A DNA stretch of 64,000 bases from Novosphingobium sp. BW1 (GTDB lineage Bacteria; Pseudomonadota; Alphaproteobacteria; Sphingomonadales; Sphingomonadaceae), in assembly GCF_008107685.1 (NCBI RefSeq), contig NZ_VIRF01000078.1:248001-312000 (forward strand), in the 5' to 3' direction. Below are positions 2,487 to 9,694 of this stretch, in pieces. Below the pieces are notes generated by a model. The model did not search any database. It saw only the letters and a program-made list of their open reading frames with translations, and had not been told where the DNA came from. The translations under genes were made by a program, and so were the position numbers. The number at the start of each line of letters is the position of its first letter. Positions within the stretch are counted from its first letter, which is position 1.

Positions 2487-3803
2487 TCAGCTCCCCCCTT
2501 TCTTGAGGCTGGGCAGATCGATGCCGTGCTTGGCAACCTTGTAATAGAAGGTCTTGCGCGGCAGGCCGAGCGCGCGGATGGCTGCGCCGATCTCGCCGCC
2601 TGTGGCGCGCACCGCCTGGACGATCTCCCCCCGCTCGAAAGCATCGACCCGTTCGGCAAGGCTCGTCGGCTCACCGCCCGGCGCAAGACCATCCGCTCCC
2701 GCCGGGTCACCGATGAGATCCATGACGAAAAGCTCGGCAAAGTTACGCAGCTCGCGCACGTTGCCGGGCCAGTCATGCGTGGCCAGGCGCGTGCGCACGG
2801 CGTCGGACAAGGGCGGCACATTACGCCCGAGACGCTGCGCGCTGGCGGCGGCAAAGCGCGCGAACAGAAGCGAGACATCTTCACGCCGCTCGCGCAGGGG
2901 TGGCAAGACCAGCCGCATTGCCGCGAGACGATAGAACAATGCCGGCTGGACGGTCATTGCTTCGCCCTCCTCAAGCGGCAGGCTTGTCGCGATGATCCGG
3001 AAATCCAGCGGGATCTCGTTCGGCCCGGACTCGACACTACGCTTCTCCACGAAGGAAATCAGCCGATCCTGGAGCCGCGGGGGGGCACGGTCGACATCGT
3101 CGAGATAAAGCGTGCCCCGATCCACCGACAGAATTGCCGGATCACTGGCCGGACCAAAGGTCCGCGTTACCAGCGCCTCGTCCATGCCCGCACAGGGCAG
3201 CGGCAGGAACCGTCGCCGCGAACGCTTGCCCGAGCGGTGAATTAGGCGCGCAAGCAGATCCTTCCCCGTGCCGGTTTCCCCTTCGATGAGAATGTCGATA
3301 TCCGCATTGGCGAGCATCGGGATCATTTCGCGCAGGCGCCGGATGGAAGAGCTTTGCCCCAGCAGGACAGGAGCAGCCTCATCCCCTGCAAGCGCGCGCA
3401 GCTGCCGGTTCTCCAGCGCCAGTTCCCGCGCCCGGATCGCCCGCCCGCACACCGTCACCAGCCCATCGGGATCGAAGGGTTTGGTCAGGAAGTCCCAGGC
3501 GCCGGACTTGAGCATGTCGACCGCCATGTCGACATCGCCGTGTCCGGTGATGAGCACGACCGGAAGCTCGGCATCAAGTTCACGCACGGCACGAAACAGG
3601 TCGATCCCGGATAGCCCTGGCATGCGCACATCGGTCACGACCACCCCCGGCCAATCGGCATCAAGCACGTCGAGTGCGGATTGCGCGCGGTCAAACAGCG
3701 TCACTTCAAAGCCGGCGAGCTTCAGGAGCTGAGCTGTCGAACGTGCAAGGTCCTCATCATCCTCGACAAGTGCGATGCGGTTGATGGAGGCAGCTTCGCT
3801 CAT
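2487..3803 (-). CDS. dctD: DctD-like response regulator of the NtrC family, lacking the GAFTGA motif
   Basis: 438 residues: receiver domain (phospho-acceptor D58 in VVVTDVRMPG, K108), AAA+ domain with Walker A GETGTGKD (175-182) and a Walker B-like GTLYLDDVD (230-238), and a C-terminal Fis-type helix-turn-helix. The partner is the membrane kinase encoded just upstream, whose stop overlaps this start by four bases. The sigma-54-contacting GAFTGA loop expected near residue 216 is absent; the sequence there is FGPASD and the segment is shortened. The protein may therefore act through DNA binding rather than classical sigma-54 activation. The dctD name rests on family and on the adjacent dctA. 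Confidence 0.85.
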   Translation of the reverse strand: MSEAASINRIALVEDDEDLARSTAQLLKLAGFEVTLFDRAQSALDVLDADWPGVVVTDVRMPGLSGIDLFRAVRELDAELPVVLITGHGDVDMAVDMLKSGAWDFLTKPFDPDGLVTVCGRAIRARELALENRQLRALAGDEAAPVLLGQSSSIRRLREMIPMLANADIDILIEGETGTGKDLLARLIHRSGKRSRRRFLPLPCAGMDEALVTRTFGPASDPAILSVDRGTLYLDDVDRAPPRLQDRLISFVEKRSVESGPNEIPLDFRIIATSLPLEEGEAMTVQPALFYRLAAMRLVLPPLRERREDVSLLFARFAAASAQRLGRNVPPLSDAVRTRLATHDWPGNVRELRNFAELFVMDLIGDPAGADGLAPGGEPTSLAERVDAFERGEIVQAVRATGGEIGAAIRALGLPRKTFYYKVAKHGIDLPSLKKGGS

Positions 3804-5548
3804 CGGGCAATCCTCAAGATCAGTTCAAAGGCCGCGCCGCCCTGCCCCTGCGCTGTGGGCAAGGCGCCGCGCGCCATCAGGCAGCGCAGCGAGCCACCGA
3901 ATTCGGCGGCGATGTCCTGTGCAATGACAAGCCCGAGTCCCAGTCCCTCCTCGCGGCTGGTCGCGAACGGCGTGAAGAGCTTCTCAGCTACCTCGTCCGC
4001 AATCCCGGGCCCGTTGTCGCGGACAACCACGGCAACCTGCTCACGCGGGCGATCCACCTCGACCTCGATAACGATCCTCGGGTCCGAATGCCCGCCAAGA
4101 GCATCAAGTGCGTTTTGGAGGAGATTCACGAGAATCTGCTCGACCCGAACCTTGTCCCCAGTCACCATCAGGTCTGCGCACAGATCGGGGAACACCGCAT
4201 CGATGCGGTCGAGCCGGTCGCGCAGAAGAAGTTCGGCCCCTTCGAGGACCTCGGCCAGCAGGCACTGTGTGCCCCCGACGGTCTTCTTGCGAGCAAATCC
4301 GCGAAGCTGGGCGGTCACGACGCCGATACGCTCGGCCAATCGGTCAATCGCCCCCAAGTTCTCGGCCACTTGTTCGCTGTCTCCGCGCTCCAGGAACACC
4401 TTCGCATTCGCGGCGTAATTGCGGATCGCCGAAACAGGCTGCGCGGTCTCATGCGCGACGCTGGCACTGACCTGCCCCAATGTGGCCAGTCGATTGGCGA
4501 GCCGCAATTCCTCGCGCAGTTGGGCCGCCCGGCTCTCGACCTGGGCGCGCTGTTCCATCTCCTCACGCAACTGCGCCGTGCGCGCGACAACCGCACTTTC
4601 CAGTTCCAGCGTACGGGCACGCCGACGCCGACTGCGAAGCAGAAGCCAGAGAACGAAGAGGCTCACAACCAGAGCCCCGCCCCCTGCGGTCATGCCCACC
4701 AACCGGGCCTGGCCCGCGACCGCCCCCTTTGTGGGCAGGAGCAGGAACAGCTGCCACCCCTCGTTTCCTCCAGGCGTATCGATACGGACGAAAGGCCCCT
4801 CGCGCCCCGACACCTCGAGCAAGCCATCGCGGCGCTGGGCCCAGGGGCGCGGATGGATCGCGTTTGCGCCGCTGTCGCGCTGGGTCTGCGCCCGCGCCTG
4901 CGCATCCAGTTCGCGCGTCGCCGCGAAACGCCAGGCCGAACGGCTGGTCACGAAGATGACCCCCATGGGGTTGGTCACGAAGGTGATCCCTCCGGCCTGG
5001 CGCCACTGGTCCTCGATCCAGTCGAACTCGAGCTTGACCACGACGGCACCGCCGCCGCGCGTGCGCTGGGCAAGGTAGAGCCCCGGCTTACGACTGACTG
5101 TTCCCAACGCAAATTGCCGCCCTGCCCCCGAATTCTGCGCCTCGCGGATGTACCGGCGGAAGCTGTAGTTCGAGCCCACGAAGCTATAAGGCTTGTCCCA
5201 GTTGCTGGCCGCGATCGCGCGTCCGTCCCGGTTCACCACATAGATGGCCGATGCGCCCGTCGTCTGGGCGAGCTCCTTCAGCTTCCCATTGAGAACCGCC
5301 ACGGCCGCATCGCTCTCACCGCGCTCGGCCGCGATCACGTCGCGGTCATCGGCAAGCGCGAGCGGCAAAAGCCGATAACGCGCCACTTCACTTTCGATCA
5401 GGGCCTGGCGTATGCGAGCGTCCGCCTCCCCCGAAACCAGAAGGGCGTCGAGAGCACGCTCACGGGCGAGATAGCCAGCCCCCAGCCCCACCAGCAGGGC
5501 CAGCACGAAGCAGCCCAGAACGGGCAGGAGGGAGGTAAAGCGAATCAT
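3800..5548 (-). CDS. dctB: DctB-like sensor histidine kinase for C4-dicarboxylates
   Basis: About 582 residues from ATG 5548, chosen because GAGG sits six bases upstream and the protein then begins directly with a transmembrane helix (LLPVLGCFVLALLVGL). A periplasmic double-PAS sensor region (SNYSFRRYIREA is typical of DctB), a second TM helix and a coiled coil follow. The DHp helix has its phospho-acceptor His in SVAHETAQPVSAI; the ATPase has N-box NLLQNALDAL and glycine boxes DNGPGI and GLGLGL. It senses C4-dicarboxylates or works with DctA, and phosphorylates the downstream regulator. An in-frame upstream extension to 5836 exists but is unlikely to be translated. Confidence 0.88.
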   Translation of the reverse strand: MIRFTSLLPVLGCFVLALLVGLGAGYLARERALDALLVSGEADARIRQALIESEVARYRLLPLALADDRDVIAAERGESDAAVAVLNGKLKELAQTTGASAIYVVNRDGRAIAASNWDKPYSFVGSNYSFRRYIREAQNSGAGRQFALGTVSRKPGLYLAQRTRGGGAVVVKLEFDWIEDQWRQAGGITFVTNPMGVIFVTSRSAWRFAATRELDAQARAQTQRDSGANAIHPRPWAQRRDGLLEVSGREGPFVRIDTPGGNEGWQLFLLLPTKGAVAGQARLVGMTAGGGALVVSLFVLWLLLRSRRRRARTLELESAVVARTAQLREEMEQRAQVESRAAQLREELRLANRLATLGQVSASVAHETAQPVSAIRNYAANAKVFLERGDSEQVAENLGAIDRLAERIGVVTAQLRGFARKKTVGGTQCLLAEVLEGAELLLRDRLDRIDAVFPDLCADLMVTGDKVRVEQILVNLLQNALDALGGHSDPRIVIEVEVDRPREQVAVVVRDNGPGIADEVAEKLFTPFATSREEGLGLGLVIAQDIAAEFGGSLRCLMARGALPTAQGQGGAAFELILRIAR

Positions 5549-5604
5549 TTCTACCTCAATACGCAGCGCGCGCACCATGTGCAATTTCCGACACATTTGC
5601 AGGC

Positions 5605-5616
5605 ATTGCATGCAAT
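5605..5616. promoter_or_regulatory. Perfect 12-bp palindrome in the dctB/dctA divergent region
   Basis: ATTGCATGCAAT lies 57 bases upstream of the dctB start within the divergent intergenic region. It is a possible operator for the adjacent regulator; no experimental motif match is claimed. Confidence 0.3.
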
Positions 5617-5780
5617 TTTCGTCACAGAAACATTCTGAAAACGATCGCAAATCCCTGTGAAAGCGTCCTTTTAACCCAAGCACGATTGCGCTGGCCCCGC
5701 ATTCCCCGAGCGGGCAGTTCTTTGCATCAAGTTGCGAGGAGGCGAAGTCTCCCGCTTGCGAGAGGACGAAAAGGTACACC

Positions 5781-7124
5781 ATGCATAGCCCCTCCCCCAC
5801 CATGCCACAGGCCGGGTCGCGCCGCCGCTGGTACACGCATCTCTATGTTCAGGTTATCGTCGCCATCGCTGCGGGCGTGGCACTTGGGCACTTCGCCCCG
5901 CAAACTGGCGAAGCCTTCAAGCCGCTTGGCGATGCCTTCATCAAGCTGGTAAAGATGGTCATCGCCCCGGTCATCTTCCTGACCATCGTGACCGGCATCG
6001 CCTCGATGCGCGACTTGCGCGCGGTGGGCCGTGTCGCGGCCAAGGCCTTCGCCTACTTCCTGACCTTTTCGACGCTCGCGCTCATCATCGGCATGATCAT
6101 CGCCAACGTGATGCGTCCGGGTGACGGGCTCAACATCGACCCGTCCTCGCTCGACGCTACCGCCGTCGCCTCCTATTCCGAGAAGGCGCACGAGACATCG
6201 CTCGTCGGCTTCCTCACCTCGATGATCCCGGACACATTCCTATCCTCGATGACCCAGGGCAACATCCTGCAGGTTCTTGTCATCGCCATCCTGTTCGGCG
6301 TTTCGCTTGCAGGCATGGGCGAGCGCGGCGACAAGCTGCTCTCGATCCTCGAAGACGTGTCGGGCGTATTCTTCCGCCTTGTCTCGATTGTGATGAAGAC
6401 CGCGCCCATCGGTGCGTTCGGCGCGATGGCCTTCACCATCGGCAAGTACGGCGTGGGCAGCCTTGCCAACCTCGCCGAGCTGGTCGCGCTGTTCTACATC
6501 ACCTCGCTGCTGTTCGTGATCGTCGTGCTCGGCACGGTCGCACGCTTTGCCGGATTCTCGATCTTCGCGCTCATCCGCTACCTCAAGGAAGAGCTGCTGC
6601 TGGTCCTGGGCACCTCTTCCTCGGAAAGCGCCCTGCCCTCGCTGATCGCAAAGATGGAAGCGGCCGGTTGCCCGAAGACCATCGTCGGCCTTGTCGTTCC
6701 CACCGGCTACTCGTTCAATCTGGATGGCACCAACATCTACATGACGCTGGCGGCGCTGTTCATCGCCCAGGCCTGCGGCGTGGACCTGACCCTTGGCCAG
6801 CAGATCCTGCTGCTCGCGGTTGCCATGCTGTCCTCCAAGGGCGCAGCGGGCGTCACCGGCGCCGGGTTCATCACACTTGCCGCCACGCTCTCGATCGTGC
6901 CTTCCGTGCCGGTCGCCGGCATGGCGCTGATCCTGGGTATCGACCGCTTCATGTCCGAGTGCCGCAGCCTCACCAACTTCGTGGGCAACGCGGTGGCCAC
7001 CGTCGTCGTCTCGCGCTGGGAGAAGTCGCTTGATCCCGCGGCCTTCCGCGCCGCCATCGCCAAGAGCGGCCGCGCCCCTGCCGATCCCGACGCCGCCGCG
7101 GCCGCCGTCACTGAGGCCGAATAA
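5781..7124 (+). CDS. dctA: C4-dicarboxylate:cation symporter DctA
   Basis: 447 residues, typical length for DctA. It has multiple membrane helices and hallmark DAACS/glutamate-transporter motifs: the serine-rich loop [28 protein letters not shown], and [18 protein letters not shown]. It imports succinate, fumarate and malate across the inner membrane. It is divergent from dctB-dctD, the classical arrangement, and is followed by an outer-membrane barrel gene 135 bases downstream. Confidence 0.95.
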
Positions 7125-7259: not shown

Positions 7260-8726
7260 ATGATCATCGACAACCGGCCGCTTATGGCCGTTGCCCTCGG
7301 CTGCGCACTATACGCGAGCCCGGCCCTTGCCCAGAGCACCACTGAGCACACGCCCTATCCACCTGCAGCCAATGGAGAGGGACGCGTCACCAACGCCTAC
7401 GCGACCGCGCGCTGGTCTGAGAACTGGAGCGCTCCAGGCGAGGCACGCGAAATCGACGATCCGCTCGACCGCCTCAAGCACATCCGCCTCGACAGCGACG
7501 ATGACATCTACCTGACGCTTGCTGGCGAGATGCGCCTGCGCACGAACTTCACCAGCAACCCCGGCCTCGTGAAAAACGAGCACCAGCGCCACGACATCCT
7601 GCGCGTGACCGGCGGCGCCGATCTGCACCTGGGTGAGCATGTGCGCCTCTACGGCGAGCTCTCGCACGCCGACAGCAGCGGGCACAACATCGGCACGCCC
7701 TCGGTTTACCAGGAAAACGATCTCGTCGTGGAGCAGAGCTTCGTCGAGGTCACCGGCACGCTGGGCGGGCTTGATCTCGGTGCACGTTACGGGCGTCAGA
7801 TGTTCTACGATGGCTCGAAAATGCTTGTCAGCCAGCGCGACAACAACGCCATCCACTACACCCAGAACGGCCTGCGCCTGTGGGCACGGGGCCGGGACGT
7901 TCGGGTAGACCTGTTCGACTTCAAGCCGACGGCCTACGGTCGCCAGGGCACCGGCGATGATCGGATCAACGACGCGATCCGCTTCAGCGGCGTGACCGTG
8001 GGCACCCAGCTTCCGCGCGATCTGCTGGGCGGATCGACGCTCTCCTTCGACCCCTTCGTGTGGCGCCTGCGCCGCCGCGAAGCCACGTGGGTCGCCACAA
8101 GCGGGCGCGAAGAGCGCGTCTATGTCGGCGCGCATGCCTGGGGCGATGTCGGCCCGGTCAACATCGACTGGACCGTCAATCACCAGTCCGGCAGCTTCGA
8201 GGATCGCGCGATTGACGCCTGGCAGGTCTTCCTGAGCCAGACGGTCGCCTTGGGCGCGCAGAAGGGCGCGCCGCGCATCGGCTTCAACTTCGATTACGCC
8301 AGCGGCGGTGGCGGCAACGAGGATGGCCCCGGTGCGGGAAAGATGCGCAACGCGATCTCTCCGCACGGCGCCAACACGCCTTTCAGCCACCACCTGTTCC
8401 TGACCGCCAGCAACCTGGTCGAGGTCGCCCCAACCCTGTCGCTGAGCCCGTTTAAATCGGTAAAGATCCTCGCCGATTACAGCTTCGCCTGGCGCGCGAC
8501 GACCAACGATGCGATTTACCGCGCCAACACCCGCCCGCTGGCAGGAACGCAGCTCTCGACGTCCCATAAGACCGCCGAGATGCCACGCCTGCAGGTGCAG
8601 TGGAACATCTCGCCGCGTGTGGGCATCACCGCGCGCTACGAACACGTCTTTGCAGGGCCCGCCTTGCGCGAAGCCGGCTACGGCGATTCCGACTTCTTCG
8701 GGACCTGGATCAGCCTGCGCTTCTGA
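7260..8726 (+). CDS. Alginate-export-family outer-membrane barrel protein
   Basis: 488 residues with a signal peptide ending near ALAQ (residue 25), then a series of amphipathic beta strands and a C-terminal aromatic residue (WISLRF), as in outer-membrane porins. The pattern (LTLAGEMRLRTNF, LGARYGRQMFYDG, SQRDNNAIHYTQNGLR) resembles the AlgE-like 'alginate export' family (PF13372). No alginate genes are nearby; its place behind dctA suggests a role in letting organic acids through the outer membrane, which is inference. Confidence 0.8.
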   Translation: MIIDNRPLMAVALGCALYASPALAQSTTEHTPYPPAANGEGRVTNAYATARWSENWSAPGEAREIDDPLDRLKHIRLDSDDDIYLTLAGEMRLRTNFTSNPGLVKNEHQRHDILRVTGGADLHLGEHVRLYGELSHADSSGHNIGTPSVYQENDLVVEQSFVEVTGTLGGLDLGARYGRQMFYDGSKMLVSQRDNNAIHYTQNGLRLWARGRDVRVDLFDFKPTAYGRQGTGDDRINDAIRFSGVTVGTQLPRDLLGGSTLSFDPFVWRLRRREATWVATSGREERVYVGAHAWGDVGPVNIDWTVNHQSGSFEDRAIDAWQVFLSQTVALGAQKGAPRIGFNFDYASGGGGNEDGPGAGKMRNAISPHGANTPFSHHLFLTASNLVEVAPTLSLSPFKSVKILADYSFAWRATTNDAIYRANTRPLAGTQLSTSHKTAEMPRLQVQWNISPRVGITARYEHVFAGPALREAGYGDSDFFGTWISLRF

Positions 8727-8916: not shown

Positions 8917-8932
8917 TGGCACGATCTTTGCT
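8917..8932 (+). promoter_or_regulatory. Consensus sigma-54 (-24/-12) promoter
   Basis: TGGCACG, four bases, TTGCT: an exact match to the RpoN consensus TGGCACGNNNNTTGCW with correct spacing. It lies 48 bases before the PEP-CTERM gene start. PEP-CTERM genes are known to be controlled by PrsK/PrsR, a sigma-54 two-component pair, so this fits the family biology. Confidence 0.85.
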
Positions 8933-8980: not shown

Positions 8981-9694
8981 ATGAATAAGAGCATATGCGG
9001 CCTTGCCGCGCTCGTAACCGGATTGGCGGTGCAACCCGCCCTTGCCGACGAGATAACTCTCTCGGATGCCGATGTCGGCTCGGAATACACCCTCATGTAC
9101 GACGGGTTTTCCGATGGCTCGACAATCGATGGCCTGACCGCCAAAATCCGGCTGACGCTGACGGGCATTTCGGGCAACGACTACATGTTCGCCTACAATG
9201 TCTCGAACACCACCTCGGCGCCGGTCACCGGATCGCGCATCTCCGGTTTTGCTTTCAACACCGACCCCACGATCTCCGCTGCCTCGAGCACGGGCGCCTT
9301 CAGCTACACGACGCTGAATTCGACCTACCCGAACGGCATCGGCACAGTCGACGTCTGCTTCAAGGATGCCTCGACGGGCAGCTGCGCGGGCGGCGGCGGC
9401 GGCGGCATCGAACTTGGAGGCAGCGGTGACGGCGCGCTGACCCTTTCGTTCGCGAGCCCAACCGAAACACTCTCGCTCAGCGACTTCTACGTGCGCTACC
9501 AGTCGATCACCGGCGTATCGGGCGTCACCTCCGCGAGCGGCGCGGGTACCGTCTCCTCGACAAGTGGCGGCTCGGACATTCCCGAACCGGGCATGCTCGC
9601 GCTCTTCGGCGTTGCCCTGATCGGCCTCGCCATCAACCGCCGCCGTGCGGTCGTAGCCCGCGGCAGCCTTCGTCCGACCTACGCAATAGCCTGA
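8981..9694 (+). CDS. Cistern-family PEP-CTERM protein
   Basis: 237 residues. A signal peptide (cleavage near ALADE, 22-24) is followed by an extracellular domain with repeated Ser/Thr/Gly residues, the segments LTLTGISGNDYMFAYNVSN and SRISGFAFNT, a cysteine pair (C126, C135) before a Gly run, and LSLSDFYVRYQSITGV. The C-terminal sorting signal is at about 200-222: PEP (201-203), a hydrophobic segment and an Arg cluster (RRR). Such proteins are exported, processed by exosortase/archaeosortase-type enzymes and linked to exopolysaccharide. The domain pattern matches the 'cistern' subfamily as I recall it. Ribosome-binding site AAAGGGGAAAG precedes the ATG. Confidence 0.85.
   Translation: MNKSICGLAALVTGLAVQPALADEITLSDADVGSEYTLMYDGFSDGSTIDGLTAKIRLTLTGISGNDYMFAYNVSNTTSAPVTGSRISGFAFNTDPTISAASSTGAFSYTTLNSTYPNGIGTVDVCFKDASTGSCAGGGGGGIELGGSGDGALTLSFASPTETLSLSDFYVRYQSITGVSGVTSASGAGTVSSTSGGSDIPEPGMLALFGVALIGLAINRRRAVVARGSLRPTYAIA

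Follow-up and report, generated by a model that had tools for sequence, protein, structure and literature searches.

Several single activators are already known to have left sigma-54, namely NtrC, TyrR, HupR, and VpsR. The sites of Rhodobacter capsulatus NtrC lie more than 100 bp upstream. This NtrC is reported to lack the GAFTGA loop and to act via sigma-70, with ATP binding needed rather than hydrolysis (PMC10274813). The Caulobacter NtrC, also without GAFTGA, reportedly needs both Walker A and Walker B residues, and the loop deletions of the two proteins differ in size (PMC10274813). Like the DctD described here, both are response-regulator enhancer-binding proteins that lack GAFTGA, and they are described at sigma-70 promoters (PMC10274813). 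They belong to another orthologous group and control another regulon.

Departures from GAFTGA have been counted in a survey by Francke and colleagues. It reports about 110 homologues with minor deviations, often Thr to Pro, and names TyrR, DhaR, HupR, and VpsR among the defective ones (PMC3162934). These four resemble the present DctD in being GAFTGA-defective and reported or judged to be sigma-70-dependent (PMC3162934, PMC10274813), but they have other targets and were compared with it by family and fold matches only. Rhizobial dctA is listed among the promoters characterised or predicted to be RpoN-dependent (PMC3616915). A DctD without GAFTGA is described in no paper among the literature matches listed.

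This analysis concerns a 64,000-nucleotide stretch of DNA from Novosphingobium sp. BW1 (the window), whose DctD shares its domain order, divergent dctA-dctBD locus, and tandem operators of the TGTGCGGAAATCCGCACA type with the DctD systems of Sinorhizobium meliloti and other rhizobia. The rhizobial proteins differ in having a 25-residue GAFTGA loop and a Walker B DE, and their dctA has a -24/-12 promoter.

The DctD protein and its locus

2487..3803, minus strand: dctD, 438 aa from ATG; a receiver-AAA+-Fis response regulator without a GAFTGA loop
3114..3158, minus strand: L1 loop shortened to 15 aa from the canonical 25 (residues 216-230, FGPASDPAILSVDRG)
3096..3110, minus strand: Walker B LYLDD, residues 232-236; the catalytic Glu is Asp (D236)
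3800..5548, minus strand: dctB sensor kinase, 582 aa, ATG at 5546-5548; 4-base overlap with dctD
5781..7124, plus strand: dctA C4-dicarboxylate symporter, presumed target of DctD (NF002461, 665 bits, cutoff 513); upstream region without -24/-12
7260..8726, plus strand: Alginate_exp-family outer-membrane protein, downstream of dctA in several relatives too

Pfam finds Response_reg, Sigma54_activat, AAA_lid_14, and HTH_8 in the window DctD, in agreement with the receiver, AAA+, and Fis domains named in an initial annotation of this DNA. The receiver, AAA+, and Fis helix-turn-helix (HTH) domains, together with linked dctB and dctA, place the protein in the DctD orthologous group. The same annotation had described the sigma-54-contacting loop as replaced and shortened and Walker B as altered, and both descriptions hold: the segment between LFG and GT is FGPASDPAILSVDRG, 15 residues compared with 25 in 17/17 GAFTGA DctDs, and Walker B reads LYLDD where canonical DctDs have LFLDE. 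GAFTGA is found at no other position of the protein.

Two features of a functional sigma-54 activator, the GAFTGA loop and the Walker B DE, are thus both missing. The R-finger segment normally has two arginines; the first is Q286 in the window DctD and the second, R292, is retained. Walker A (GETGTGK) and D58 are unchanged. Absence of the GAFTGA loop with retention of the receiver is also the combination that marks an R. capsulatus NtrC-like protein. NCBIfam assigns no name, because the best curated regulator model, PgtA, reaches 280 bits against a cutoff of 650. An AlphaFold model (28 aligned sequences) has a mean pLDDT of 89.6. Its best structural match is Brucella NtrX, with a Z of 27.2 and an rmsd of 14.7 across 405 residues from several domains, followed by NtrC4 (Z 27.0, rmsd 12.6, 348 residues); the AAA+ part alone best matches FleQ (Z 24.1, rmsd 2.3, 224 residues).

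The dctA and dctBD genes stand back to back in the window, and dctB adjoins dctD in relatives too. HATPase_c passes its Pfam cutoff in DctB, and Cache and HisKA fall under theirs, in a query with three extra N-terminal residues. Homologues of the Alginate_exp-family gene lie 3' of dctA in L040-L043, L045, and L046, as does a gene annotated as alginate-export family in Novosphingobium capsulatum and Sphingomonas parapaucimobilis. This recurrence after dctA suggests an outer-membrane channel for dicarboxylates as part of the operon.

Loop loss among relatives

Among 199 genomes of the window's own family, a search gave 28 DctD matches of at least 250 bits, the threshold, in 27 genomes, with the next score at 190 bits. 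A contig-edge fragment below this score gap (G141:C45, 48% identity over residues 9-203) was left out. GAFTGA is absent from 28/28 of these full-length orthologues, and 22 of them have divergent dctA/dctBD within the fetched stretch. One rpoN is present in the window's own genome and one in each of the 26/26 other genomes of the set with DctD. In the window's own genome, GAFTGA is kept in 5/8 strong enhancer-binding proteins (NifA-like, NtrC-like, FlbD-like, and PspF-like proteins and a PEP-CTERM-box regulator) and is missing from NtrX, a GAFPGA protein, and DctD.

For the broader comparison, 150 loci with a DctD-like gene were collected; the 47 with close divergent dctA and dctB were used and 103 were set aside. 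Seventeen of the 47 have GAFTGA, three of them near copies (L189-L191), and 30 lack it. One gene appears twice (L032 = L062) in profile alignment A2, which served as a search query only, and profile-search matches above 361.5 bits that were left out are G513:C4 (contig edge), G497:C37 (one internal stop), and the window's own gene. Nine further records came later, seven of them with dctA, for 54 dctA-linked loci in all. Six of the seven lack GAFTGA (three Paracoccus, Thioclava, S. parapaucimobilis, and Novosphingobium humi) and one, Pseudoroseomonas, has it. The loci of named relatives are on plasmids, as drawn from a collection of plasmids only.

Loop length is 25 residues in 17/17 dctA-linked GAFTGA DctDs and ranges from 13 to 26 in the 30 without. 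These 30 proteins retain D58 (30), the Walker A lysine K181 (29), R292 (30), and most HTH residues, whereas the Walker B Glu is kept in just 14/30. Mean pairwise identity without and with GAFTGA is 0.41 versus 0.70 in the AAA+ domain, 0.52 versus 0.58 in the receiver, and 0.44 versus 0.57 in the HTH.

Altered loops also occur in other settings. GAFTGA is missing, and the loop is short or altered, in DctD-like regulators without adjacent dctA (L237-L243, L245-L248). A short DctD-like group of 408-416 aa (L249-L252), beside a DctB-like kinase, is almost loop-free and has a Walker A without the lysine. In L119 (Photobacterium lutimaris), a DctD-like protein, the loop, Walker B, and R-finger segment are all altered. 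An NtrC-like response regulator in the window's own genome (L007, C46:166288) has GAFPGA, and the same Thr-to-Pro change is present in L051, L058, L061, L114, L207, L214, L219, L222, L226, and L260.

Loss of the sigma-54 promoter at dctA

Promoters were scored against TGGCACG-N4-TTGCW (GG-N10-GC spacing), with a cut-off of 10 of 12. Upstream of the window dctA, the best correctly spaced -24/-12 match scores 8/12, a value equalled by 28/100 shuffles, and the promoter previously said to be missing here is indeed not recognisable. Among the 47 loci, matches of at least 10/12 occur in 17/17 with GAFTGA versus 1/30 without (shuffle rate 2.2%), and in the later set in 1/1 versus 0/6, the single positive being Pseudoroseomonas with TGGCACCGCGCTTGCC at +93. 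The combined counts are 18/18 and 1/36. Fisher's test on the loop/promoter association gives 7e-12 on the assumption of independent loci, which the tree denies (see below).

The promoter of GAFTGA loci has a regular place, its TTGC starting at +92 to +104 from the center of operator 2; in five loci of the Azospirillum type, it starts at +60 to +62 instead. Between +40 and +115 of operator 2, the 30 loci without GAFTGA yield one match at 10/12 and one more at 9/12. Altered spacers in these loci give 2/30 when one base shorter and 0/30 when one base longer, and the other strand gives 0/30.

An extension to 101 loci without close divergent dctA was scored upstream of dctB, a gene that is not necessarily the target, and proved uninformative. 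Three rows had no sequence there; matches of at least 10/12 occur in 2/66 with GAFTGA and 4/35 without. L097 (GSFTSA, 11/12) counts as lacking GAFTGA only under the strict motif pattern. L051, with a full-length GAFPGA loop and a 10/12 match, was considered as an evolutionary intermediate and rejected: compared with the usual position, its match is shifted about 9 bp toward the operator, and 2/100 shuffles equal it.

A perfect sigma-54 promoter, TGGCACGATCTTTGCT, does occur in the window at 8917-8932 (+), 3.1 kb from the dctA start and 48 bases 5' of a cistern-family PEP-CTERM gene (8981-9694; NF033947, 222 bits, cutoff 60). The genome has six perfect matches, this one included, against 2 in a backward-read control.

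Retention of the tandem operators

5578..5595, no strand assigned: DctD operator 1 (predicted), TGTGCAATTTCCGACACA; the pair beats 60/60 shuffles
5609..5626, no strand assigned: DctD operator 2 (predicted, weak), CATGCAATTTTCGTCACA; 31 bp from operator 1

The dctA-dctB gaps contain two TGTGCGGAAATCCGCACA-type palindromes 31-34 bp apart, in a search that permitted spacings of 30-36, and such pairs are present upstream of dctA both with and without the GAFTGA loop. The exact TGTGCGGAAATCCGCACA word is found in S. meliloti (L072), and relatives, among them L044 and L062, share it. At each of the 47 loci, the pair outscores 60/60 two-base-block shuffles, a test that is partly circular because the matrix was seeded from the same loci; pairs in the seven later dctA-linked loci score 13.7 to 36.7. 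The window pair scores 22.3 against a shuffle maximum of 6.7. The weaker operator falls below 5 bits in 6/30 loci without GAFTGA (L043, L045, L046, L050, L069, and L211; lowest -2.3) and in 0/17 with it. TGTGC-N8-GCACA occurs three times in the window's own genome, always away from dctA. IHF-like sites occur in 3/30 loci without GAFTGA and 3/17 with it.

A -10-like hexamer at the usual -12 position in some loci

In 11/29 loci without GAFTGA, TANNNT is found at +95 to +97 from operator 2, compared with 0/17 loci with GAFTGA. The offset was picked after inspecting the data, and L046, a near copy of L045, was dropped; no other of the 177 three-offset windows is as rich (11 versus 0.7 expected, with 5 in the next separate window). 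The later set without GAFTGA has TANNNT at +97 in 4/6 loci and at +99 in one more. Combined, a -10-like TANNNT stands 95-97 bp beyond operator 2, the usual place of the -12 element, in 15/35 loci without GAFTGA, and this position suggests that a change of promoter class may have left the start site where it was.

The hexamer is absent at +95 to +97 in 18/29 loci, including the window, L040, and L042, and upstream of the window dctA no recognisable -35/-10 was found on the dctA strand. The -35 hexamers are poor in loci without GAFTGA, except in Paracoccus, where three loci (L070, L256, L261) share TTGGGC-N17-TATCAT. A general -35/-10 scan of the 29 regions exceeds the 95% shuffle level in just 4 (L044, L049, L056, L060); unlike that scan, only the position-specific TANNNT test is informative. 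Motif discovery in the sequence downstream of operator 2 was set aside: it did better than shuffled controls but yielded AT-rich tracts rather than a recognisable promoter. The sole sigma-70-like match in the window gap is TTCACA-N18-CAGAAT at 5632-5661 (-), which scores 9/12 (shuffle mean 0.1) and is directed to dctB, with both operators between it and that gene.

A single origin

A tree of the 47 DctDs, rooted with three gamma/beta DctDs and built with the loop columns removed, places all 30 proteins without GAFTGA on one side of one branch (99/99), with Paracoccus L070 inside. This clade is nested among alphaproteobacterial GAFTGA DctDs, a grouping that includes the rhizobial proteins. The tree requires one change for the loop and two for the promoter, the second being the L051 match, and an independent-pair test finds 1 pair. 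The locus counts are therefore not independent trials, and one co-loss accounts for nearly all of the loop/promoter pattern: on this tree, GAFTGA loss has one origin, with one preserved co-loss rather than dozens. Among Sphingobium strains compared elsewhere, DctBD is reported in only three, and transfer is suggested (PMC6783567).

How DctD may act without sigma-54

Protein and promoter both support the loss of sigma-54 coupling across the 54 dctA-linked loci: judged by sequence, the loop is gone, the operators are retained, the -24/-12 promoter is gone, and the loss is of common origin. The proposed switch away from sigma-54 activation thus finds agreement between loop and promoter over these loci, as one event on the tree. 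Since the contact loop and the matching promoter were both lost, regulator and target were apparently rewired together. DctD probably continues to bind its tandem distal operators but acts on a sigma-70-type polymerase, with sigma-54 left behind.

The analogy to Rhodobacter NtrC offered by the initial annotation would rest on the kept operators, the often-lost hydrolysis residue, and the -10-like hexamer of many relatives. Retention of Walker A, R292, and D58 with frequent loss of the Walker B Glu is consistent with ATP binding and oligomers, and the need for hydrolysis would not be strong. In the mechanism that we propose, DctB presumably phosphorylates DctD at D58, and DctD would then occupy the pair of palindromic operators, whose spacing is about 32 bp. 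These lie immediately 5' of dctB and, measured from a dctA start placed by comparison with relatives, at roughly -140 and -108. The ATP-bound oligomer, with the nucleotide little hydrolyzed, may help a sigma-70-type polymerase instead of remodeling a sigma-54 polymerase.

Direct activation, rather than repression, is what we infer, and repression forms part of the main rival view, in which DctD is a repressor or autoregulator, mainly of dctBD, and another factor drives dctA. We consider this unlikely, although several details favor it. The dctB start codon is 30 bp from the beginning of operator 1 (2 to 41 bp in five annotated records), and the gap's only sigma-70-like match points to dctB, so operator 2 would sit at the start site of this match. 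A repressor could tolerate the missing ATPase residues, and TyrR and HupR are reported as sigma-70-dependent relatives with a defective GAFTGA (PMC3162934). However, rhizobial loci with the same operator place and spacing are reported to have DctD activation of dctA (PMC9827912), and the phospho-acceptor and tandem spacing are both retained.

It is quite improbable that dctA still depends on sigma-54 through a diverged promoter, with DctD working via a different surface or with the help of a second enhancer-binding protein. The genome does encode RpoN and five GAFTGA proteins, and L051 combines a full-length GAFPGA loop with a 10/12 promoter match, but that match is the only one at this level in the searched interval of the 30 loci, altered spacers add little (2/30, 0/30), and most single GAFTGA changes reportedly leave the protein inactive (PMC3162934). 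That DctD is decaying and functionless is hardly credible: the lowered AAA+ identity (0.41 versus 0.70) would fit, yet the window dctD is an intact ORF, receiver identity is nearly that of GAFTGA proteins (0.52 versus 0.58), the phospho-acceptor, K181 (29/30), R292, and most HTH residues are kept, and the operator pairs beat all shuffles in 30/30 loci.

Returning to activation through sigma-70, it is possible, at close to an even chance, that a whole DctD clade, with members in sphingomonads, Paracoccaceae, and some further alphaproteobacteria, underwent an in-place conversion of its target promoter. The distal tandem enhancer and start-site position would have stayed, the -12 TTGC would have become a -10 TANNNT, and DctD would have turned into an activator that works from a distance on the housekeeping polymerase, binding ATP with little hydrolysis.

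Significance

The new element is what sequence comparison presents as a clear change in cis and in trans at DctD and dctA. Unlike the NtrC cases, the DctD promoter change is readable at one orthologous locus: the same operon occurs with and without the loop in many genomes, and the operators serve as fixed marks, so the change can be followed base by base. The record name "sigma-54 dependent transcriptional regulator" is also given to proteins without GAFTGA and can mislead. If the proposed mechanism is true, these loci would form a natural series for how a distal enhancer works on the housekeeping polymerase.
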